64,000 bases of DNA from Pseudonocardia sp. HH130630-07. GTDB taxonomy: Bacteria; Actinomycetota; Actinomycetes; Mycobacteriales; Pseudonocardiaceae. The DNA lies in assembly GCF_001698125.1 (NCBI RefSeq), contig NZ_CP013854.1, positions 744,001-808,000 of the forward strand, given 5' to 3'. A program made the translations under genes and the position numbers. The notes under the pieces are model-generated. The model was not told where the DNA came from, ran no database searches, and saw only the letters and a list, made by a program, of their open reading frames with translations. Positions 5,526-35,985 of this stretch are shown here, one piece after another (the stretch's first letter is position 1; each line of letters opens with the position of its first letter).

Positions 5526-6419
5526 GGTGTGTCTCCCAATGCGCGGAGCCAGGTGACGATCGCCTTCAGGACGGCGCCGCCGCGGAAGGTCAGGGCGAGC
5601 TTGTCGTAACGGGTGGCCAGCCCGCGCCACTGCTTGACGTGGCAGAACCCGCACTCGACGACGTTGCGGTTTCGGTAGTCGACCGGATCGAATGCGGGCG
5701 GTCGGCCACCGCGTGAGCCCCGTCGTTTGCGGTGTCCCTGCTGGTCAGAGGGCTCCGGAATGACAGCGATGATCCGGCGCTCGCGCAGGTGCCGGCGGAT
5801 CGCGCGTGAGGAGTAGGCCTTGTCCGCGCGCACGCGTTCAGGCCGGGTCCGGGGTCGTCCCGGGCCCGGTCGGGCGATGCTCAGGCGCGCCATCAGGTGC
5901 GGAAACATTGGCGAGTCGCCGCCCTGGCCGGGGCCGAGGAGGACCACCAGCGGGCGGCCGTGCCCGTCAACGAGCTGGTGGATCTTCGTCGACAGCCCTC
6001 CGCGGGACCGTCCCAGCGCGTGATCTGCTGGTTCGGCGAGCAGATTCGTGTAGTTCGATCCGGCCCCCTATGTCGCGCTTGAGGGTCGCGGCGTGCTGGT
6101 GGGCACGGATGATCGTGGAGTCCACGCTGACCGCCCACCCGAGCACCTCGGCGGCGTCGGCCTCGACCAGAAGAGCAGCCAGGATGTGGTCCCAGGTGCC
6201 GTCGCCGCTGTAGCGGCGGTGCCGCTTCCACAACGTCTGCCACGGCCCGAACTCGGCTGGGACGTCGCGCCAGGGAAGCCCGCACCGATACCGGTAGATG
6301 ATCCCCTCGATCACCCGGCGGTCATCGCGGAACGGGCACCCGCGACGACCCTCGGAAGAGGGCAACAGCGGCGCCAGACGGGCCCACTGGACATCAGTCA
6401 GGACAGCGGTACGCGGCAC
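5522..6419 (-). CDS. IS5-family transposase, two overlapping frames (copy 1)
   Basis: The N-terminal frame (to about 5967) reads PRTAVLTDVQWARLAPLLP and carries the first catalytic Asp in VSVDSTIIRAHQHA. The C-terminal frame holds DHALGRSRGGLSTKIH, the second Asp in VRADKAYSSRAIR and the Glu in ECGFCHVKQWRGLATR, giving the DDE triad. The frames must be joined by a shift near the G5 run at 6064-6068, as in IS427-type elements. In this copy a TAG sits just before the run in the second frame, so a shift before it would abort translation and a shift after it would not. The stop codon lies in host DNA supplied by the CTAG target. Confidence 0.85.
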
Positions 6420-26171: not shown

Positions 26172-26630
26172 CTACTCGCCGCGGAGCGGTGACCCGTCGC
26201 CGGTATCTGCCGCGGGGCGCTCCATGAAGACGTCGATCTCGTCCTCGGCCGTCACCACGAAACCGTGCCGGTCGTAGAGCACGCGCGCCCGGCTGCCCTG
26301 CAGGACGTTCAGCCGGAACGGCCGGGGATCGACGTCCCGCAACACCCCGCGCAGGACCTCGCCGCCGATCCCCCGCCCCTGCAACGCCGGGGCCAGGTAG
26401 AAGTGCTCGATCCAGCGCGCGCCGGTCTCCGGCCGCACCGCGACCGAGCCGGCGTCCACGCCGTCGACCAGGACGATCCGGGTGTGCGCCGGGACGAAGC
26501 CCGACCGGAACCGCTGCCGTACCCGCACCGGGTCGAAGCGCCCGAGCCGTTCGAGGTCGGCGCGCAGGACCACCGCGCGCAGCTCGGCGAGCCAGCCGGC
26601 GTCACCGGGCTCACCCGGGCGCAGCGTCAC
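26172..26630 (-). CDS. GNAT-family N-acetyltransferase
   Basis: A 152-residue acetyltransferase with the acetyl-CoA loop QGRGIGGEVLRGVL preceded by the strand HFYLAPAL, and the C-terminal YDRHGFVVTAEDEIDVFME. Substrate unknown. The chosen GTG overlaps the TetR stop by 4 nt (a GTG three codons earlier also exists). It probably forms an operon with that regulator. Confidence 0.88.
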   Translation of the reverse strand: MTLRPGEPGDAGWLAELRAVVLRADLERLGRFDPVRVRQRFRSGFVPAHTRIVLVDGVDAGSVAVRPETGARWIEHFYLAPALQGRGIGGEVLRGVLRDVDPRPFRLNVLQGSRARVLYDRHGFVVTAEDEIDVFMERPAADTGDGSPLRGE

Positions 26631-27247
26631 CGGCGGCACGGCTGCTCCCGGGCGCCGGGCGGCGGGGCGATCCGGTCCAGGACGTGGTGCAGCGTCCGGC
26701 GCGCCCGTTCGACCGGGGCGCCGTAGAGCGCGACGTCGCCGCCCAGGCCGCGGGCCAGCGTCCACAGTGCGAACCCGTCGATCTCCGGGTCGGTGCCGGG
26801 CGCGGCCCGCCCGGACGCGACGGCCTCGGCCACGACGCGCACGGTGAGCGCGAGGATCTCCTCGTCGCCGTCGGTGAGCACGTCGGCCATCTCCTCGGTC
26901 ACCGCGCGCGCCGCGAACGCGGAGTGCACCCGGATCGCGTCCCGGGTCTGCGGGTGCTCCCCCAGCAGCTCGTCGAGGATGGCGACCAGGATCGTGCGCT
27001 CGTCACCGGCGGACCCCTCCAGGCGCTGCCCGATCCGGCGTTCCATGTACCGGTGGGAGAACCGCAGGCCGTCGAGCAGCAGATCGTCCTTCGTCGAGAA
27101 GTAGTACTGCACCCGCCCCATCGACACGCCCGCCTCGGCCGCGACCGAGCGCAGCGACACCGCTTCGACCCCGCCGTCGGAGACCAGGCGCCAGACGGCG
27201 GCCGCCAGCTGCTCGCGCCGGGCCTCGTGGTCGGTGGTCCGTGGCAC
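26627..27247 (-). CDS. TetR-family regulator
   Basis: A 206-residue regulator: N-terminal helix-turn-helix SLRSVAAEAGVSMGRVQYYF with downstream STKDDLLLDGL, then a helical ligand domain. A GTG start gives PRTTDHEARREQL. A 16-bp palindrome directly upstream is the probable operator. It is followed by a GNAT gene with 4-nt overlap, suggesting joint control. The inducer is unknown. Confidence 0.9.
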   Translation of the reverse strand: MPRTTDHEARREQLAAAVWRLVSDGGVEAVSLRSVAAEAGVSMGRVQYYFSTKDDLLLDGLRFSHRYMERRIGQRLEGSAGDERTILVAILDELLGEHPQTRDAIRVHSAFAARAVTEEMADVLTDGDEEILALTVRVVAEAVASGRAAPGTDPEIDGFALWTLARGLGGDVALYGAPVERARRTLHHVLDRIAPPPGAREQPCRR

Positions 27248-27260
27248 CCGGCGAGCGTAG

Positions 27261-27276
27261 CAATGCGTTCGCATTG
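27261..27276. promoter_or_regulatory. Palindromic operator upstream of tetR
   Basis: CAATGCGTTCGCATTG has perfect 7-bp arms around TT. It sits 13 bp before the TetR start and right after the DedA-like gene stop. Size and position fit TetR autorepression. Confidence 0.65.
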
Positions 27277-27894
27277 TCAGGAGCGGGCGGCCCGCCGCGC
27301 GCGTGCCGTACGGACGACGGTCCATCCCACCGCCACCGCCAGCGCACCGAGCAGTACCCAGGTGAGGATCTCCTGCACGGAGACCAGCCCCGCCGCGACC
27401 GCCGAGCCCGCCACCAGCAACCGGCCGAGCCCGAAGGTGGCCAGCGCCCACGCCGCCGCCACCGGGACGCTGACCAGCAGGAACCGCGGATAACGCAGGC
27501 TCGGTCCGGCCACCCGCGGCACGAGCGTCCTGGCCACCGCGAACCACTGCCCGAGTGCGAGCGCCACGACCGGGCGGGCCTCGGCGAGCCGCAGCACCCG
27601 CCGGGCCGGCGGCGGGACCCGGGCACCCCCGCGCAGCGGTCCCGCACCGGCGCTACGCGCCCGCCAGTAGCCGAGGCTGGGCCCGGCGACCGCCGCCGTC
27701 ACCGCCGCCGTCACCGCGGCGGGGCCGGGCACCGCACCCGTCCCTGCCAGCACACCGAGCCCGACGGTCACGCTGATCCCCGGCAGCACGACCCCGACGA
27801 GCAGCCCGGACTCCGCCACCAGGACCAGCGCCGCCACGACCAGCACCCCCGGGCCCAGCAGGTCCGCCGCGGCGGACAGCGCGTCGGCGATCAC
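27277..27894 (-). CDS. DedA/VTT-domain membrane protein
   Basis: A 205-residue membrane protein with about five helices. The VTT/DedA signatures are LVAESGLLVGVVLPG at the N-terminus and ALGQWFAVARTLVPRVAG in the middle. DedA proteins move lipids or maintain the proton motive force; the substrate is not readable. It ends in the operator of the tetR gene. Confidence 0.85.
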   Translation of the reverse strand: MIADALSAAADLLGPGVLVVAALVLVAESGLLVGVVLPGISVTVGLGVLAGTGAVPGPAAVTAAVTAAVAGPSLGYWRARSAGAGPLRGGARVPPPARRVLRLAEARPVVALALGQWFAVARTLVPRVAGPSLRYPRFLLVSVPVAAAWALATFGLGRLLVAGSAVAAGLVSVQEILTWVLLGALAVAVGWTVVRTARARRAARS

Positions 27895-27918
27895 CGGCGG
27901 GTCACCGCACCACGGCCG

Positions 27919-28362
27919 TCATGTCCGGGCCCCCGCCGTCCGGCGGCGCCGCACCGCCGACGTCACCAGTACCGCCACGGCCGCCAGCACCAGCGTCCCG
28001 ACCAGCGGCAGCCCGAACAGGATCGCGATCCCCCCGCCGATGTTCGCGTCCGGGGTCGCGGCGGTCACGAGCCGTCCGATCCCGCCGAGCAGGACACCGG
28101 CCGGGACGAGAAGTGCCGCGGCACCGATCCCGGTCGCGCCGGTCCGGCGGGCGGTCACCGCGGCCAGCGCCACGAGCAGACCGATCGCCAGCACCCCGCC
28201 GACGTGCTCGAGCGCGACCGGGACCTGCGGCGCCGCGACGATCGGGGTGCCGGGCCCGGGGCTGCTCAGGTCACCCACCAGGTACCAGGTGACGACGGCC
28301 GCGGCCGCGCCGGCCGCACCCACGATCGCCGCCGTCGTCCGGGTGTGCGTCTCGTGTCCCAT
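27919..28362 (-). CDS. Four-helix membrane protein, unknown
   Basis: A 147-residue protein with four predicted membrane helices (AIVGAAGAAAAVVTWYLVG, GGVLAIGLLVALAAVT, GAAALLVPAGVLLGGI, ILFGLPLVGTLVLAAVAVLV) and a basic tail RRRRTAG. No family is recognised. It is divergent from an AlkZ-like gene, with two perfect palindromes in the shared gap, and is 25 bp upstream of the DedA-like gene. Confidence 0.6.
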   Translation of the reverse strand: MGHETHTRTTAAIVGAAGAAAAVVTWYLVGDLSSPGPGTPIVAAPQVPVALEHVGGVLAIGLLVALAAVTARRTGATGIGAAALLVPAGVLLGGIGRLVTAATPDANIGGGIAILFGLPLVGTLVLAAVAVLVTSAVRRRRTAGART

Positions 28363-28376
28363 CGGGTCCTCCCGTC

Positions 28377-28436
28377 GTGGTCCACGGACCACCATGGACC
28401 GCGCATCCTTCCAGCACCTCCGTGGTTCCACGGAGG
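28377..28436. promoter_or_regulatory. Two palindromes in the divergent gap
   Basis: GTGGTCCACGGACCAC (7-bp arms, 28377-28392) and CCTCCGTGGTTCCACGGAGG (9-bp arms, 28417-28436) lie between the membrane-protein gene and the AlkZ-like gene. Two dyads in a 119-bp divergent gap suggest a shared regulator. Confidence 0.5.
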
Positions 28437-28481
28437 CCACCGGCGTTGCCGGGCACCAGCGCCGTCTGCTGTGCTCGGCGC

Positions 28482-29579
28482 ATGACGACGGTCCTCGACC
28501 GGCAGGCCCTCAACCGGGCGACCCTGGCTCGCCAGCACCTGCTCGAACGCAGGGTCGCCGGGACCACCGCCGCGGAGGTCGTCGGCCACCTGGGCGGGCT
28601 CCAGGCGCAGGAACCCCGCGAGCCCTACACCGGGCTGTGGTCCCGGATCGCCGCGTTCGACCCGGCCCCGGCCTCGGCGGCGCTGACCGACCGCACCCTG
28701 GTCCGGACGCTGCTGATGCGCCGCACCGTGCACCTGGTGACCGCCGACGACTGTCTCGCCCACCGCGCGCTGCACCAGCCGATGATCACCCAGCGGACCT
28801 GGGGCGCCCGGAAGGCGGACCTGGCCGGGGTGACGCCGGAGACGCTCGCCGAGGCCGTCGCACCGTGCTTCACCGAGACCCCGCGGACCGGGGGCGAGGT
28901 AGCCCGGCTGGTCGCCGCCCGGTTCCCGGACGCGGCGCACGCCGCGCTCGCCGACGCCGCGGTGTCGGTCGTCCCGCTCGTCCAGGTCCCGCCCCGCGGC
29001 ACCTGGGACGGCGCGGGGCAGGCCCGGTTGACGACGGTGGCCGCATGGCTGGGCCGGGACCCCGACCCGGAGCCGGCGGCCGAGGAGCTGGTGCGCCGCT
29101 ACCTGCGCGCGTTCGGTCCCGCCGCGTCCGCGGACCTGCGCGCCTGGTGCGGGCTGACCGGGCTGCCCGCGGTCCTCGCGCGGATGCGGCCCGAACTGCG
29201 GACCTTCCGTGACGAGCGGGGCCGGGAGCTGCTGGACGTCCCCGACGCGCCGCTCCCCGGCCCGGACGTCCCGGCGCCGGTGCGGTTCCTGCCCGCGTTC
29301 GACAACGTCGTGCTGGGGTTCGACGACCGGAGCCGGGTCATCGACGACGCCCACCGCGGGCTCAGCGTCGCCGGCGCCCGCTTCGTGCTGGTCGACGGCC
29401 GGGTCGCCGCGACCTGGGCCCCGTCCGGCGGGGACGGGGCCGACGGCACCGACCTCACCGTGCAGCCGCTGCGTCCGCTGTCCCCGGCCGAGACCGACGA
29501 CATCGTGGCCGAAGGGGAGCGACTGCGGGAGTTCCGCGGTGGCGGGGCACCGGGCCGGGTCCGGGTCGCCACGGTCTGA
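28482..29579 (+). CDS. AlkZ-like winged-helix DNA glycosylase family protein
   Basis: A 365-residue HTH_42 winged-helix protein. The AlkZ/AlkX catalytic Q-x-Q motif is visible as GGLQAQEPREPYTGLW near residue 45, and tandem winged helices follow (LLMRRTVHLVTADDC, RTGGEVARLVAARFP). Members unhook interstrand crosslinks or repair bulky alkyl adducts, including those of self-made antibiotics. The typical C-terminal FLPAFDNVVLGFDDR is present. It stands alone; no biosynthetic cluster of a DNA-damaging compound is in the window. Confidence 0.85.
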   Translation: MTTVLDRQALNRATLARQHLLERRVAGTTAAEVVGHLGGLQAQEPREPYTGLWSRIAAFDPAPASAALTDRTLVRTLLMRRTVHLVTADDCLAHRALHQPMITQRTWGARKADLAGVTPETLAEAVAPCFTETPRTGGEVARLVAARFPDAAHAALADAAVSVVPLVQVPPRGTWDGAGQARLTTVAAWLGRDPDPEPAAEELVRRYLRAFGPAASADLRAWCGLTGLPAVLARMRPELRTFRDERGRELLDVPDAPLPGPDVPAPVRFLPAFDNVVLGFDDRSRVIDDAHRGLSVAGARFVLVDGRVAATWAPSGGDGADGTDLTVQPLRPLSPAETDDIVAEGERLREFRGGGAPGRVRVATV

Positions 29580-29684
29580 ACCGAGCGGCACGTCCTCCCG
29601 GTGATCGGCCGGCTAGCTGGAGGCCGCACGAGAGGATCCGCTGGTCGGCGAGTCCGTCGCCGTTGTCGGGTGCGTGCCCGATGT

Positions 29685-30836
29685 TCAGCCGGGCGACGCC
29701 CAGGTGCGGACGACGGAGCTGGGCTCGTCGAGCCACATGGTCTGGGCGATCGCGCCGCTCGGGGTGGTGGTCAGGCCGAACCGGTCGAGGCCGGGCTCGC
29801 CGTGGTCGTGCCACCAGTCGTAGGCGTCTTCGGTCTCGTCCCACAGCCGCCGCGGTCCGAGTTGGTGCACGGTGAACGGGGCGGGGTCGGTGAGGTTCGC
29901 GTCGAGACGGGCCCACGACCCGGTGACCGGGTCGTCGAGTTCGAGACTGTGGTGGCGCCGACCGTGTCTGTCCCACTTCATGGCCTTGTTCACCGGGGCC
30001 AGGCGAGCACCGATGGCGAACAGGCCCTTGTCGGGGTCGAGTATCCGGTCCAGGTCGCTGCCACGGCAGGCGGTGGTCGACACGTCCGCGGCGGCGACGG
30101 CATCGGGCGAGGGCTCGAAGTAGTGCAGCGCGCGGCGCTGGTCGCGGATGCGCATGAACGCCAGGTCCCCGCTGAACCGCCCGGTGCCGACTCCGGTGTC
30201 GTCGAGGTCGACGGTGAGCATGACGCCGTTGGACCAGTCGGTACCCCACGGGGTCACCAGCCGCCCGCCCGGGCGCAGCTGGGCCGGCCATGCCGGTGGT
30301 ACGACCTCGCGGATCGCGGCGGTGGCGATCACCCGGTCGTAGGGGGCGTGGTCGGGGACGCCGGCCGTCCCGTCGCCGGTGACGACCGTCGGCGCGTACC
30401 CGGCCGCGGTCAGCGCGCGGCGGGCACCGTCGGCCAGGGCGGGATCGACCTCGATGGTGGTGACGTGCCCGCCGGGCCCGACCCGGTGGGCGAGCAGCGC
30501 GGCGTTCCAACCGGTGCCGGTGCCGATCTCCAGCACCCGGTCACCTGGTTGCGTGTCCAGGGCGAGGAGCATGTCCGCGACGATGCCGGGCCGGCTGCAC
30601 GAGCTGGACGGGAAGCTGCCCGTCGCGCCGGGTTCGACCGCACCGAGGTCGACCTGGGTGATCACCGGCGCGTCCGCGACGGCAGCTGCGTGCCAGGCGT
30701 CGGGGTCGGTGTCGCGGTGCACCGCGGTGAACGAACCGGACTCGCCCCGGATCCAGATGGTGTCCGGCAGGAACGCGGTCCGCGGAACCTGCTCGGACAG
30801 GACCTGCCACTGCGGTGTCGTGCCGGCCGCGGTCAC
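29685..30836 (-). CDS. RiPP-associated protein-L-isoaspartate O-methyltransferase homologue (imiditide-type)
   Basis: A 383-residue class I methyltransferase of the PIMT family: motif I VLEIGTGTGWNAALLA, motif II TTIEVDPALADGARRAL, and PYDRVIATAAIREVVPPAW. It is much longer than repair PIMT (about 220 residues). The C-terminal extension ends with DRFGLTTTPSGAIAQTMWLD, close to the motif that marks PIMTs of lasso, graspetide, lanthipeptide and imiditide clusters. These methylate an Asp in a precursor peptide, which then closes to aspartimide. The GTG overlaps a 38-codon peptide gene by 4 nt. Confidence 0.85.
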   Translation of the reverse strand: MTAAGTTPQWQVLSEQVPRTAFLPDTIWIRGESGSFTAVHRDTDPDAWHAAAVADAPVITQVDLGAVEPGATGSFPSSSCSRPGIVADMLLALDTQPGDRVLEIGTGTGWNAALLAHRVGPGGHVTTIEVDPALADGARRALTAAGYAPTVVTGDGTAGVPDHAPYDRVIATAAIREVVPPAWPAQLRPGGRLVTPWGTDWSNGVMLTVDLDDTGVGTGRFSGDLAFMRIRDQRRALHYFEPSPDAVAAADVSTTACRGSDLDRILDPDKGLFAIGARLAPVNKAMKWDRHGRRHHSLELDDPVTGSWARLDANLTDPAPFTVHQLGPRRLWDETEDAYDWWHDHGEPGLDRFGLTTTPSGAIAQTMWLDEPSSVVRTWASPG

Positions 30837-30949
30837 GTGTCGTCCTTGTCGTGCTTCCCGCCGCCGGCGTCGTCGACGTCCTTGGTCCGGGTGTGGTCGT
30901 AGCCGTCCTTGTGCCCGTCGCTCTCGGTGTTGTCCGCGTGCTTGCCCAC
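30833..30949 (-). CDS. Predicted imiditide-type precursor peptide
   Basis: A 38-residue peptide from GTG with GGAGG 9 nt upstream. It is extremely polar: ten Asp, five Lys, four His and one Arg, no Cys, no Leu or Ile. Two Asp-Gly pairs lie in the middle (TESDGHKDGYDH, D11-G12 and D15-G16), the chemically preferred sites for aspartimide. The rest reads TRTKDVDDAGGGKHDKDDT. The stop overlaps the methyltransferase start (GTGA). Imiditide precursors are likewise linear, highly charged and encoded beside a PIMT. There is no protease or transporter gene nearby. Confidence 0.7.
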   Translation of the reverse strand: MGKHADNTESDGHKDGYDHTRTKDVDDAGGGKHDKDDT

Positions 30950-31142
30950 GACTTCTCGCCTCCGACAGGGTTTGCGATCCCGTGTTCCTCCTGGATACCA
31001 CCTCGGTCGGACCTCGTGGCGCGATCACGGGGAGAATCCACCGGGAGGACGCGTCCGGCCGCGCGCTCCGCCGAGCCCGCCCTGGCGGGGCGAGTCGGGT
31101 GTCGAGCGCGACCTGCTCGCACCCGGCGGAGGTGCCGTGCCG

Positions 31143-32482
31143 CTAGTCGACCGGCCGCCACGGCCGCGGCGGCAGCGTCGGCACCCCGCTCGGCGAGCAC
31201 TGCCCACCACGCTCCCCCGCCAGCCGGAACACCAGCCACCCGGCGACCGCGGCGAGCACCGAGCCGGTGAGGATGCCGATCTTCGCCTCCGCGACCAGCA
31301 GCTCGTCCGACAGCGCCAGCTCGGTGACGAACAACGCCACCGTGAAGCCGATCCCGGACAGCGCCGACCCGCCGAGCAGCTGGCCCCAGCGCAGCGTGTC
31401 CGGCACCCGGCCGATCCCGGTGCGCAATGCGACCCAGGTGGCGAGCGCGACGCCGATCGGCTTGCCGACCACGAGCCCGAGCACGATCCCCCAGGTCAGC
31501 ATCGAGGTCGCGGCGGCGGACAGGGTCTGCGCGTCGAGCACCACACCGGCGTTCGCCAGCACGAACAGCGGGACGATCACGTAGCTGCTCCACGGCTGGA
31601 TGCGCAGCTGCAGCCGCTCGTTCGGCGACACCGCGCCGACGGCGACGGACCGGGCCGCCTGCGCCCGCTCCGGTGTCGGGTCGAGCAGGAGTCCTTGCCG
31701 GCCCGCATCGCGTCGGCCATCTGCTCCCGGCGCGGTGCGTAGGCGTTGACCAGCAGCCCGAGCGCGACCCCGACGACGCTCGGGTGCACCCCCGAGGCCA
31801 GCACCGCCAGCCAGCACAACACCCCGACGACGGCGTAGAACGGCGTCCGCCAGAACCGCACGTACCGCAGTCCCAGCAGGCCGGCCAGCAGCAGCACCGC
31901 CACCACCAGCGCCACCACGTCGACCTCGTCGGTGTAGAACAGCGCGATCGCCGCGACCGCGCCGATGTCGTCGACGATCGCCAGCGCCAGCAGGAACACC
32001 CGCAGCTGGTCCGGGCACCGCGGGCCGAGCAGGGCCAGCACCCCGAGCATCACCGCGGTGTCGGTGGAGATCGCGATCCCCCACGCACCGGCGGCCTCGC
32101 CGCCCGCGTTCAGCGACAGGAACAGCAGCGCCGGGACGACGAGCCCGCCGACCGCGGCGGCGGCCGGGGCGGCGAGCGCACGGGCGCCGCGCAGCTCACC
32201 GAGCGTCGTCTCGCGGGCGATCTCCAGGCCGACCGAGAGGAAGAACAGCACCATCAGGCCGTCGTTCACCCAGTGCCGCAGGTCGAGATCGAGCCCGCTG
32301 CCGCCGAGCTGGACGGCGAGCGAGGTGTGCCAGAACGACTCGTACCCGGCGCCGAGGTTGGCCCAGACGAGCGCGACGACGGCCGCGCCGACCAGCAGCA
32401 CGGCCGAGCCGGACTCGGTGCCGAGGAACCGGCGTGCGGAGTCCGAGAGATCCCCGCGCTCGACCAGCGTCGTGACCGCCAT
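31143..32482 (-). pseudogene. nhaA: Na+/H+ antiporter NhaA, frameshifted
   Basis: The N-terminal frame (from 32482) gives a typical NhaA: DGLMVLFFLSVGLEIARE, AISTDTAVMLGVLALLG with the discontinuous-helix Asp region VDDIGAVAAIALFY. Near 31690-31697 the frame breaks after RAGKD, and the next frame continues with LLLDPTPERAQ, VIVPLFVLANAGVV, GIGFTVALFV to the end. Loss of one C explains it. Restored, the protein is about 446 residues. The truncated product would lack the last third of the transmembrane helices. A sequencing error remains possible. Confidence 0.8.
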
Positions 32483-32528
32483 GCGACGATCCTGCCGTCC
32501 CGCCCGAACCGCACCGCGCGGAGGTCCC

Positions 32529-33056
32529 GTGAGCCGGCTCGACCCGCCCGTCGGCCCGTACGACCACGTCCTGGGGGCACCGGGTGCGGAGCTCACCCTC
32601 GTCGAGTACGGCGACTACGAGTGCCCGTACTGCCGCGACGCCGCCCCCGTGATCGACGAGGTCCGGGCCCGTCTGGGTGAACGGCTGCGGTTCGTCTTCC
32701 GGCACTTCCCGCTGCACGAGGTGCATCCGCACGCCATCGCGGCGGCGCTGGCCGCGGAGATGGCCGCGCGCGAGGGCCGGTTCTGGGAGATGCACGCCGC
32801 GCTGTTCGCACCGGGGCCGCCCCGGCTGGGCCAGGACGACCTGCGCGCCCACGCGCGGACCGCCGGGGCGCGGCCCGACCAGGTCATCTGGCCGGCCACC
32901 CGGGCCGTCGAGGACCGGATCGAGGCCGGGTTCAACGCCGCCGTCCGGGGCGGGGTGCGCGGCACCCCGACGCTGTACGTCAACGGCGAGCGCTACCGCG
33001 GGGAGGTCACCGTGGACGCGCTGGCCGCGGCGCTGGAGCCGGCGGACGCCCGGTAG
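32529..33056 (+). CDS. DsbA-family thioredoxin-fold protein
   Basis: A 175-residue DsbA-like protein without signal peptide. The redox site is ECPYCRDAAP near residue 33 and the cis-Pro loop is GTPTLYVNG. Related domains are often fused to the C-terminus of NhaA or encoded next to it in actinobacteria; here it is divergent from nhaA with a gap of 46 bp. Likely role is thiol-disulfide exchange or disulfide reduction in the cytoplasm. GTG start with GGAGG upstream. Confidence 0.88.
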   Translation: MSRLDPPVGPYDHVLGAPGAELTLVEYGDYECPYCRDAAPVIDEVRARLGERLRFVFRHFPLHEVHPHAIAAALAAEMAAREGRFWEMHAALFAPGPPRLGQDDLRAHARTAGARPDQVIWPATRAVEDRIEAGFNAAVRGGVRGTPTLYVNGERYRGEVTVDALAAALEPADAR

Positions 33057-33136
33057 CCGCGGCCCGCACGGGCCGCGACGGGCACCCCGGGTCCCGCCGC
33101 GGATCGCTACGGTGATCACGGCGACAGGGAGGTCCC

Positions 33137-34600
33137 ATGCACGCACCGAGCGTTGTCATCGTCGGCGCCGGCTTCGGCGGGATCGCGGCCGCGATCGAGC
33201 TGCGGGCCCACGGCATCCGGGACGTGTCGATCCTCGACGCCGCCCCGGGCCTCGGCGGCACCTGGCTGCACAACACCTATCCCGGTGCCGCGTGCGACGT
33301 GCCCAGCCACCTGTACTCGTTCTCCTTCGCCCAGCGCACCGGCTGGTCCCGGCTGTGCTCCCCGCAGCCGGAGATCCTCGCCTACCTGCAGGAGGTGGCG
33401 ACCCGGTTCGGCGTCGCGGACCTCGTCGAGACCGGGACCCGGGTCACCGCGGCGGACCGGCCGCGGGCCGACGGGCCGTGGACGCTCACCACCGAGGACG
33501 GCCGCACCCGCACCGCGGACGTCCTGATCGTGGCCACCGGGCAGCTGAACACGCCGGTCGTCCCGTCCCTGCCCGGGGTGGACTCGTTCGCCGGGCACGC
33601 GTTCCACTCGGCGCGCTGGGACCACGACCACGACCTGCGGGGCCGCCGGGTCGCCGTGATCGGGACCGGCGCGAGCGCGGTGCAGTTCGTCCCCGCGATC
33701 GCGCCGGGGACCGGGCACCTGACCGTCTTCCAGCGCTCCGGCAACTGGTTCCTGCCGCGCCGCAACCGGCGGTTCCCGGCCTGGTGGCGGGCGGCGATCC
33801 GGCGGGTCCCCGGCCTGCAGCGGCTGCGGCGCCGGTTCGTCACGGAGTACTGCGAGTCGCTGACCCTGATGATCCGCCACCCCTCGACCTGGGGCCGGAT
33901 CGGCCGGCTCTACGCCACGGTGTTCATGCGGATGCAGCTGCGCGACCCGGAGGTCCGGCGCCGGGCGTGGCCGGACTACACCTTCGGCTGCAAGCGGATC
34001 CTGTTCAGCTCGCACTGGCTGCCCGCGCTGCAGCGCCCCAACGTGTCGCTGGAGACCGAGCGGATCTCCGAGATCGTCCCGGAGGGGGTGCGCACCGCCG
34101 ACGGCCGGGTGCACGAGGCCGACACGATCATCTGGGGCACCGGCTTCGCGACCACCGACTTCATGTTCCCGATGGAGATCACCGGTCCCGGCGGGCGGTC
34201 GCTGCGCGCGGAGTGGGCCGACGGTGCGCACGCCTACCTGGGGATGACGGTGCCGGGGTTCCCGTCGCTGTTCGTCCTCTACGGACCGAACACGAACACC
34301 TCCGGCGGGTCGATCGTGCGCTACCTGGAGCACCAGGCCCGGTACGTGCGCGAGGCGCTGCAGGAGGCGGCGCGGCGCGGGTCGAGCGGGGTGGAGGTGC
34401 GGGCCGAGGTCGAGCGGTCCTACGACGAGGCGACCCAGGCCCGGTTCGCCGGGACGGCCTGGCTGCGCTGCGACTCGTGGTACCGGGACGACTCGGGCCG
34501 GATCGTGACGAACTGGCCCGGCTACATGCGCGACTACGAGGCCCGCACCGCGCGGGTGGAACCGGCCGACTACGTGTTCCACGGGTCCCCGCAGCGCTGA
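33137..34600 (+). CDS. Flavin-containing Baeyer-Villiger-type monooxygenase
   Basis: A 487-residue flavoprotein. FAD site VIVGAGFGGIAAAIELRA, the Baeyer-Villiger fingerprint FAGHAFHSARWDHD, and a second Rossmann NADPH site VAVIGTGASAVQFVP. The end has NTNTSGGSIV typical of the family. It inserts one oxygen atom into ketones or similar substrates using NADPH and O2; the substrate is unknown. The ATG follows GGGAGGT. It stands alone, ended by a hairpin. Confidence 0.92.
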   Translation: MHAPSVVIVGAGFGGIAAAIELRAHGIRDVSILDAAPGLGGTWLHNTYPGAACDVPSHLYSFSFAQRTGWSRLCSPQPEILAYLQEVATRFGVADLVETGTRVTAADRPRADGPWTLTTEDGRTRTADVLIVATGQLNTPVVPSLPGVDSFAGHAFHSARWDHDHDLRGRRVAVIGTGASAVQFVPAIAPGTGHLTVFQRSGNWFLPRRNRRFPAWWRAAIRRVPGLQRLRRRFVTEYCESLTLMIRHPSTWGRIGRLYATVFMRMQLRDPEVRRRAWPDYTFGCKRILFSSHWLPALQRPNVSLETERISEIVPEGVRTADGRVHEADTIIWGTGFATTDFMFPMEITGPGGRSLRAEWADGAHAYLGMTVPGFPSLFVLYGPNTNTSGGSIVRYLEHQARYVREALQEAARRGSSGVEVRAEVERSYDEATQARFAGTAWLRCDSWYRDDSGRIVTNWPGYMRDYEARTARVEPADYVFHGSPQR

Positions 34601-34620
34601 GCACGACCGGCGGAAACGCC

Positions 34621-34657
34621 GACGCGCCGTACCCCGGGAGCCGGGGCACGGCGCGTC
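34621..34657. terminator. Bidirectional hairpin terminator
   Basis: GACGCGCCGT-A-CCCCGG, loop GAG, CCGGGG-C-ACGGCGCGTC: a 16-bp stem with one mismatch. It lies between the convergent monooxygenase and small secreted peptide genes. Confidence 0.75.
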
Positions 34658-34669
34658 GCCGGGCCGAAC

Positions 34670-34858
34670 TCAGTCGATGATGCCGCTGAGCACGTCGAGG
34701 TCCTGCAGGTTGACCAGGCCGACCTGCGCCTGCTCGTTACCCGAGTCGTTGATGTTCACGTCGTCACGGTCGTGCGACGTCGACGCGAACGCCGGCGAGC
34801 CGAACGCCACCAGGCACGCCGCGGCACCGGCAACGACGATCGCGAGCTTCCTGCCCAT
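34670..34858 (-). CDS. Small secreted peptide, unknown
   Basis: A 62-residue protein: signal peptide of 25 residues (MGRKLAIVVAGAAACLVAF, ending PAFA) and a mature region of 37 residues that starts STSHDRDDVNINDSGNEQAQ and ends VLSGIID. GGGAG lies 6 nt before the ATG, which decides it over an ATG two codons earlier. The NLQDLDVLSG segment resembles the end of rodlins (IAVQDVNVLSS), but the similarity is short and no cysteine occurs. Probably a cell-surface or secreted peptide. Confidence 0.65.
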   Translation of the reverse strand: MGRKLAIVVAGAAACLVAFGSPAFASTSHDRDDVNINDSGNEQAQVGLVNLQDLDVLSGIID

Positions 34859-35259
34859 TGTCATCTCCCGAAATGAGTTCTGATCGAGACCTAACCGGCG
34901 TTGCGGAACGCGACCCGGCAGGAAGAACGCTAGGGACCGGGGTGCGCCGGGAGATACGGTCGCCACCCGGAAGAGTGGCGGCGGTCACCTCCCCCTCCGC
35001 CGGGTGGTTTGCGCGCCCCGCGACGGGTTCCCCCAGGACGGCCGACACGCTCGGTTCCCGTTGCGCGCCAGGCGAACACGGACAGCGATCGATCGCTCAC
35101 GCTGCTCCCGGGGGCCGCGTCACCCGGTGGACTGAGGCGCGCACGGCGTGTCGCGCTTCTTCGGCGTGTCGCGACACGGCGGGTTGATCCTCACGCGACG
35201 TGAGGCGGCACCGTCCATCATGCCGTCACGAGGTGACGGCCCGACGGGAGGGGAGACCG
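34859..35259. other. Non-coding gap with dyads upstream of the TipA-like gene
   Basis: No gene is supported in this 400-bp stretch. It holds the promoter of the small peptide and, at 35165-35178, CGTGTCGCGACACG (perfect palindrome), with another GCGTGTCGCG half at about 35146. At 35189-35205, CCTCACGCGACGTGAGG has 7-bp arms and a CGA centre. The latter two are probably operator DNA for the MerR-family gene 55 bp downstream. Confidence 0.5.
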
Positions 35260-35985
35260 GTGAAGGTCGGCGAGCTCGCGAGGGCGACCGGACTGACGGT
35301 GCGCACGCTGCACCACTGGGAGGAGCGGGGCCTGGTCGTGCCCTCGGCACGTACCCACTCGGGCCACCGCGTCTACGACGACGGCGACGTCCGCCGCGTC
35401 TACCAGGTGGTCGCCCTGCGGGAGCTCGGACTCCCGCTCGACGCGGTCGGCGAGCTGCTCGCGAGCGGCTCGTTCGCCGCCGTCCTCACCGCCCACCTGC
35501 AGCAGGTCGACGACCGGCTGGCCGCGTTGCGCTCGCTGCGCAGCACGCTGTCCGGCGTCGTCGACCGGCTCCGGGAGGCACCGGACCCGACCCCGTCGGA
35601 CGTGTTGATGATGATCGACGAGGTGAGCAGGGTGAACGACACCTTCGCGCAATACTTCACACCGGACCAGGTCGCCGCGCTGCAGGCGGCACGTGCGGAC
35701 GGCGAGACCACCGCCGCGCAGTGGCCGGACGTCATCGCCGGCATCCGGGCCGAGATGGCGGCGGGCACCGACCCAGCGGACCCGCGCGTGCAGGCGCTCG
35801 CCGCGCGCTGGGCGGAGCTGCTGGCCGGGTTCCACCGCGGCGAGCCGGAGCTGCGCGAGCAGCTGTTCCGGATGCGGGCGGAGAACGCCACCGAGGTGGT
35901 CGCGGCCGGCGGGCCCGACCAGGCGATGATCGACTACGTCGAGCGGGCCCGGGGCTCCGGCCGACCCACTCTCGACAGATCGTAG
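35260..35985 (+). CDS. TipAL-like MerR regulator
   Basis: A 241-residue MerR-family protein. N-terminal winged helix KVGELARATGLTVRTLHHWE and GHRVYDDGDVRRVYQ, a coiled dimer helix (LQQVDDRLAALRSLRS), and a TipAS-type C-terminal domain (FAQYFTPDQVAALQAARADG, AARWAELLAGFHRG). TipAS binds thiopeptide antibiotics covalently in Streptomyces; this one lacks an obvious Cys in the visible pocket, so the ligand may differ. GTG start after GGGGAG. It is 21 bp from the next gene. Confidence 0.88.
   Translation: MKVGELARATGLTVRTLHHWEERGLVVPSARTHSGHRVYDDGDVRRVYQVVALRELGLPLDAVGELLASGSFAAVLTAHLQQVDDRLAALRSLRSTLSGVVDRLREAPDPTPSDVLMMIDEVSRVNDTFAQYFTPDQVAALQAARADGETTAAQWPDVIAGIRAEMAAGTDPADPRVQALAARWAELLAGFHRGEPELREQLFRMRAENATEVVAAGGPDQAMIDYVERARGSGRPTLDRS

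Follow-up and report, generated by a model that had tools for sequence, protein, structure and literature searches.

What is made by a gene of only 38 codons that runs directly into the gene of a PIMT-type methyltransferase, and why does a single Pseudonocardia genome carry the two together? The question is raised by a stretch of 64,000 nucleotides from Pseudonocardia sp. HH130630-07 (the window, whose positions are used below unless stated otherwise), for which an earlier note, made from the letters alone, had proposed an imiditide, a RiPP whose precursor is converted to an aspartimide. The imiditide class was reportedly founded by Cao et al. in JACS in 2023. By its sequence, the window pair is a member of this class, and the following paragraphs set out the genes, their partnership, their setting and the residue that is predicted to be modified. 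As described in PMC13001092 and PMC10787088, imiditides, or type I pamtides, consist of a precursor, in which an Asp is conserved, and a PIMT homologue as the sole modifying enzyme, and 1414 type I members have been counted there.

The precursor gene lies on the minus strand (30949-30833, that is 30833..30949), begins with GTG and translates into MGKHADNTESDGHKDGYDHTRTKDVDDAGGGKHDKDDT, 38 residues; it appears in the list of open reading frames and has similar peptides beside related enzymes as counterparts. Its ribosome-binding site, GGAGG, can be read off the sequence 9 nt before the GTG (30959..30963, minus), and its TGA stop overlaps the GTG start of the enzyme in the four nucleotides GTGA (30836-30833; 30833..30836, minus). 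Both the 38-codon gene with its ribosome-binding site and the 4-nt overlap are thus as the earlier note had them, and a residue count agrees with its very polar peptide: ten Asp, one Glu, five Lys, one Arg and four His, no Cys and no Pro, with a net charge of -5 without His. The two central Asp-Gly pairs that it had pointed to are located at D11-G12 and D15-G16.

The enzyme gene follows on the same strand (30836-29685; 29685..30836) and encodes a RiPP-type PIMT (protein L-aspartyl methyltransferase, PAMT) of 383 residues, an identification that draws on the reading frame, profiles, an alignment, a tree and a structural model. The profiles bear out a PIMT-type methyltransferase: Pfam PCMT matches residues 78-207 at 1.3e-28, and the best NCBIfam model is TIGR04188 (1.2e-85; 288 bits, below the model cut-off of 380), which carries the name of ATP-grasp systems, while TIGR04364 gives 148 bits for a cut-off of 320. 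Throughout an alignment of 31 rows, for which 30 fetched relatives were used and L041 was dropped for a stop inside its frame, the SAM-binding motif LEIGTGTGW (residues 102-110; 30507..30533, minus) is invariant. The C-terminal motif DRFGLTTTP...QTMWLD that had drawn attention to the enzyme is present as well, and it is preceded by an element absent from the earlier note, WHDHGEP (residues 342-348; 29793..29813, minus), which is a WxxxGxP motif as defined in PMC13001092. Specifically, W342 and P348 are invariant in the 31 rows, and the Gly is replaced by Asp in several of the 31 aligned enzymes.

The AlphaFold2 model of the enzyme (mean pLDDT 90.8, pTM 0.89) finds its best PDB match in 1DL5, the PIMT of T. 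maritima (364 columns, TM 0.49/0.59, rmsd 8.2). As a whole, this predicted structure is a loose match, and for its catalytic part shorter PIMTs are closer (2YXE, with a TM of 0.79 normalised to target length). 1DL5 is described as a PIMT whose C-terminal extension is of the same kind (PMC13001092, PMC10787088); with 383 residues, a PCMT match that ends at residue 207 and an alignment to 1DL5 over 364 columns, the window enzyme has a C-terminal extension of more than 100 residues. A tree of 39 rows places it in a starred clade whose three other members, L038-L040, are from Pseudonocardiales; two of these three carry the same precursor type and one, L040, carries a remnant. The L040 enzyme is 62% identical to that of the window, and its precursor remnant, upstream of position 6001 of that locus, is without the N-terminal half.

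Is the small reading frame a gene, and does it partner the enzyme? When the peptide of the window is aligned by codons with those of seven close sequences, mismatches amount to 0.254, 0.250 and 0.476 of the comparisons at codon positions 1, 2 and 3, and this excess of third-position changes is, at the level of sequence comparison, coding conservation. A scan of named genomes found at least 558 relatives of the enzyme, the best 80 of which provide the locus counts. The lack of a conserved small ORF beside homologous methyltransferases was what the earlier note had said would refute it; such an ORF is present, and one that fits a strict pattern ([DN]G and, after 8-32 residues, [GN][KR]H near the C-terminus) adjoins 40 of the best 80 of at least 558 related enzymes but occurs in 10 of 5600 control slots. 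Looser patterns, composed after the peptides had been inspected, raise the count to 68 of these 80 best loci, with matches in 146 of 4350 control slots. A single loose pattern supplies 13 of the 68 matches and 136 of the 146 control matches, and leaving it aside gives 55 of the best 80 against 10 of 4350. Judged by these counts, the association of peptide and enzyme exceeds chance. At the other 12 of the best 80 loci, no peptide fits the strict or looser patterns; these include L044, whose precursor has a stop further on, the remnant of L040, charged peptides outside all patterns at L078, L089 and L116, and L086, with its start 111 nt from the end of the locus.

It is highly probable that the two genes form an imiditide (type I pamtide) cassette, in which the overlapping enzyme methylates Asp11 of a linear precursor and the ester closes to an aspartimide. 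The assignment follows from the RiPP-type C-terminal domain with its WxxxGxP motif, the overlapping charged precursor, the conserved small ORF and the lack of any other RiPP enzyme nearby, and it upholds the class that the earlier note had named; the gene pair, its coding conservation, the enzyme family, the predicted fold and the conserved Asp are direct results of the present analysis. Specifically, a Pfam scan of the ten ORFs of 26172-35985, two of them without any Pfam match, found no ATP-grasp or other RiPP enzyme, and the same ten ORFs are without a recognisable protease or exporter, as had been claimed. Like the imiditide pairs mNmaA-NmaM of Nonomuraea maritima and SpaA-SpaM of Streptomyces sparsogenes, the window pair comprises two genes, one for a linear and charged precursor that lacks Cys, is about 40 residues long and has a conserved Asp, the other for a PIMT homologue with an extra C-terminal domain and WxxxGxP. 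It differs from them, with NmaA and SpaA compared by description, in that its precursor is rich in Asp, Lys and Gly, has no Pro and is net acidic (-5), whereas the class is described as Pro-rich and strongly positive (PMC13001092), and in that it offers Asp-Gly where Asp-His is reported for NmaA (PMC13001092). The enzyme is likewise acidic, with a net charge of -18, and the published charge attraction is therefore not simply transferable. An acidic precursor with an acidic enzyme thereby tests whether such attraction explains enzyme specificity.

The pair is set as a small insert between two ordinary genes. To its left, an AlkZ-like family gene (PF06224; 28377..29579, plus), recognised by Pfam and homologous to relatives from about position 28473, converges on the enzyme gene; to its right lies an nhaA-type Na+/H+ antiporter gene (31143..32596, minus), recognised by Pfam and relatives and spread over two frames. 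The same two genes are neighbours in two relatives, L120 and L121, where 11 and 24 nt, respectively, separate the aligned parts, and the homology of these relatives to the window ends at 29558-29575 and resumes at 31145. Because the flanks adjoin in L120 and L121, a segment of about 1.57 kb that holds just the pair (29576..31144) is specific to the window; in a third close relative, L119, the compared stretch contains only the AlkZ-like gene. A close enzyme occurs in one of 62 genomes of the genus, and although nine of the 62 match the enzyme at E 1e-40, none apart from the window copy exceeds 47% identity. Given this pattern, gain of the segment appears likelier than its loss in the relatives. 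Composition does not mark the segment, since its GC content is 0.727 and that of the window 0.736. A perfect 13-nt inverted repeat close to the ends of the segment (29591-29603 / 31039-31051) was considered as a pair of transposon ends and rejected, as it lies off the homology borders and a rough hand estimate puts the number of such repeats expected at random at about 0.3. Compared with the own genome, the two flanking stretches have, besides themselves, one short weak match each (38 and 32 nt), and a promoter and terminator scan returned none. The antiporter itself is split into ORFs 31577-32596 and 31143-32084 (minus), each with part of Na_H_antiport_1, which reflects either a frameshift or a sequence error.

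Related pairs are found on phages. A tblastn search with the enzyme as query, covering 50,697 phage records, gave nine matches, one of them partial; the other eight are records of Streptomyces phages and, three being second records, therefore represent five phages, two of one species. All five fetched Austintatiousvirus phages of Streptomyces (L162-L166, Bioscum among them) have the precursor-enzyme pair. The small gene directly before the phage methyltransferase encodes MSGKHGGGSGSGSGGSQQDDSSSGRQHGGGGSETSGGNSSDGSGP... or a close variant, a peptide of the kind that also accompanies enzymes on Streptomyces chromosomes, for instance at L095 and L112, and the 39-row tree unites the phage enzymes and those of Streptomyces in a starred set. 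The phage pair sits between the repressor and the lysis genes, and its transcription runs opposite to that of the lysis and tail genes; in three of the five stretches, a serine integrase lies on the far side of the repressor. PHROG 13505 matches the Austintatious enzyme at 1e-191 and the window enzyme at 1e-98. In the phage annotations, the pair appears as a hypothetical protein and an O-methyltransferase or methyltransferase domain protein.

Viral contigs extend this picture. In IMG/VR, 48 loci encode a relative of the enzyme, and 18 of the 48 do so with a type-I-like peptide, as judged by eye in a filtered list in which L171 and L173 may duplicate phages already named. Phage-like surroundings are evident at L178 (integrase, regulator, endolysin and tail proteins) and at L182 (regulator and integrase). 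For the viral contigs L169 and L179, a prophage character is unsupported, with seven proteins scanned and a ParA-like match in L169 as the only result. Among the matches listed in a literature search, whose scope was titles and the openings of abstracts and left preprints and most subscription journals outside, none links the class to phages. Word counts in the available text of PMC13001092 and PMC10787088 gave no word beginning with phage or plasmid, and in word searches "methyltransferase" was absent from PMC10117723 and referred only to rRNA methyltransferases in PMC9239200. What is new, as such, is the pair as a segment of about 1.57 kb, the carriage of such pairs by five phages and two prophage-like contigs and the XRE/DUF5753 regulators among the neighbours of its relatives; the window member itself is ordinary, and the phage lead is the part of interest.

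Plasmids and regulators complete the setting. Thirteen plasmid records hold relatives of the enzyme at E 1e-40, counted by the enzyme match only. The own genome contains a second imiditide-like pair (G000:C2:10925-12198; L002, L218) on contig C2 of 375,718 bp, with a precursor from C2:10925 that ends in MAKHDEKADQDSQKADEKEGTENSGGDPDGPEGRHRK and has Asp-Ser at the predicted site, and with an enzyme match at C2:11104-12198. A 6.56-kb stretch that is 99.7% identical to the Pseudonocardia plasmid pLS1-1 ends 14 nt before this second pair. XRE/DUF5753-like regulator ORFs accompany 35 of the best 80 of at least 558 loci, 28 of them within about 3 kb; they were assigned by likeness, with one checked by Pfam, in a set of neighbouring ORFs that includes shadow ORFs. 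As a background, 680 DUF5753 domains in the 150.6 Mb of 19 genomes, which had been selected for having a DUF5753-type neighbour at their locus, correspond to about 6% expected per 13 kb. DUF6879-like ORFs occur at 20 of the best 80 of at least 558 loci. A conserved transporter beside the family was considered and rejected, an ABC ATPase cluster being found at just 10 of these best 80 with varying placement. No XRE/DUF5753 regulator lies near the window pair, the nearest in the own genome being more than 400 kb away.

Because a compact segment is absent from two relatives and related pairs reside on temperate-type phages and a plasmid-like contig, the pair probably moves as a self-sufficient accessory cassette, and this mobile setting suggests an accessory role linked to phages or competition. 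A broader reading can be put forward tentatively: imiditide pairs may in general be mobile cassettes, carried as cargo in the lysogeny region of temperate actinophages and also as bare inserts of about 1.5 kb in chromosomes and plasmids, with a product that serves the mobile element or the host cell (superinfection immunity, killing of competitors or XRE signalling) and is not a classical secondary metabolite. If true, the cargo reading would be the first biological context in which an enigmatic RiPP class can be tested; Streptomyces phages that are named, in culture and equipped with such pairs constitute a tractable system for function, and the window member adds a contrast of presence and absence among related genomes within a single genus. 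A 2026 review (PMC13001092) calls the function that aspartimidylated RiPPs have in biology the bigger open challenge.

A more specific alternative keeps the proposed chemistry and takes the pair for an intracellular module of mobile elements, comparable to toxin-antitoxin or superinfection-immunity systems, whose product is not exported. The position beside a repressor in the Austintatiousvirus phages and in the prophage-like L178 and L182, the enzyme relatives on 13 plasmid records, the patchy occurrence in one of 62 genomes of the genus, the regulators near 35 of the best 80 of at least 558 loci and the ten neighbouring ORFs, among which no exporter or protease was recognised, would all be compatible with such a module. 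It is nevertheless somewhat unlikely, since the window copy lies between ordinary genes and away from any XRE/DUF5753 regulator, and an exported product would also be compatible with phage carriage.

Returning to the imiditide chemistry, which Asp is modified? The comparison uses 26 precursors that were picked by hand, with starts set by eye and with the window and the own C2 copy included; the set omits further loci of an organism already included, Streptomyces-type peptides, L040 (a remnant), L013, whose precursor is not in a single frame, L034, L056, L078, L088, L089 and others. Of the 26 hand-chosen precursors, 25 have Asp at position 11 and one has Asn; likewise, 25 have Gly at position 12, and the exception, with Ser, is the second copy of the own genome. 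The conserved Asp-Gly that the earlier note had suggested looking for is thus retained at D11-G12 and, with the 4-nt overlap, characterises the small ORF as a precursor gene. That note had placed the modification at D11 or D15: D11 stands, and D15 is ruled out, with Asp in only 8 of the 26 and Gly next to it in 3. At position 18, Asp occurs in all eight close sequences and in 9 of the 26 overall, whereas the D11 codon specifies Asp in seven of the eight and is AAC (Asn) in one, from Longimycelium. Since D11 is kept in 25 of 26 and D18 in 9 of 26, though in 8 of 8 in the close set, D11 with the following G12 (codon of D11 at 30917..30919, minus) is the predicted modification site and D18, an Asp-His (30896..30898, minus), the second candidate; both codons were singled out by conservation across precursors. 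In the Longimycelium tulufanense type (L042/L014), Asn-Gly replaces Asp-Gly at the predicted site and the enzyme frame is open. Asn-Gly could reach a succinimide via spontaneous deamidation.

That the enzyme acts on the peptide at D18 rather than D11 is quite improbable: Asp-Gly, by general chemistry, closes to an aspartimide readily, and conservation across the 26 precursors lies with position 11, whereas the unbroken conservation of D18 in the eight close sequences speaks for this second site. So does the modified Asp of NmaA, which precedes a His (PMC13001092). With D11 as the predicted site, methylation, aspartimide formation and recognition would follow the published members. Specifically, the small gene would make a linear charged precursor, and the PIMT homologue, with its C-terminal recognition domain, would use SAM to methylate the Asp11 side chain. 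Subsequently, the methyl ester would close on the backbone amide of Gly12 to give an aspartimide, with a net change of -18 Da, which in turn may open to isoaspartate. By analogy, this route from the Asp11 methyl ester via aspartimide to isoAsp is the most likely chemistry. Recognition would probably proceed via conserved N-terminal GKH and C-terminal GGGKH blocks. The latter (30851..30865, minus) is the other conserved part of the precursor, with His at position 33 in 24 of the 26 hand-chosen precursors and a C-terminal [GN][KR]H mostly retained among them, and it is a probable recognition element by comparison with published cases, in which C-terminal precursor residues are required for modification (PMC13001092, PMC10787088).

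Other systems with related enzymes fit the pair less well. The graspetide-associated PIMTs (TIGR04188; fuscimiditide, amycolimiditide) share its enzyme family and C-terminal domain, but graspetide membership is ruled out, as no ATP-grasp partner adjoins the pair and its 288 bits remain below the TIGR04188 cut-off of 380. Cysimiditides, or type II pamtides, are likewise two-gene pairs with a PIMT homologue, yet their precursors have two CxxCxGxG motifs, which the window precursor lacks because it has no Cys. Lanthipeptides with LanSA were set aside on the same absence of Cys and on that of any lanthipeptide enzyme among the ten neighbouring ORFs. E. coli Pcm (3LBF) and T. maritima PIMT (1DL5) share the catalytic domain, and 1DL5 also the C-terminal extension, but both are known as isoaspartyl repair enzymes for which, unlike the window pair, the papers describe no cognate peptide gene. 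A housekeeping or graspetide-type PIMT that does not have the small ORF as its substrate is very improbable, for although the best NCBIfam model is ATP-grasp-associated and the genome encodes such an ATP-grasp (329 bits, below the cut-off of 350) adjacent to another PIMT homologue, that ATP-grasp is about 2.9 Mb away, none is among the ten neighbouring ORFs and the small ORF accompanies the enzyme across genera. This distant graspetide-type ATP-grasp and its own PIMT homologue are located at G000:C1:3663052-3665219. Finally, the IMG/VR viral contig L210 carries a CxxCxGxG-type peptide before a PIMT homologue, an arrangement that resembles a type II pamtide.
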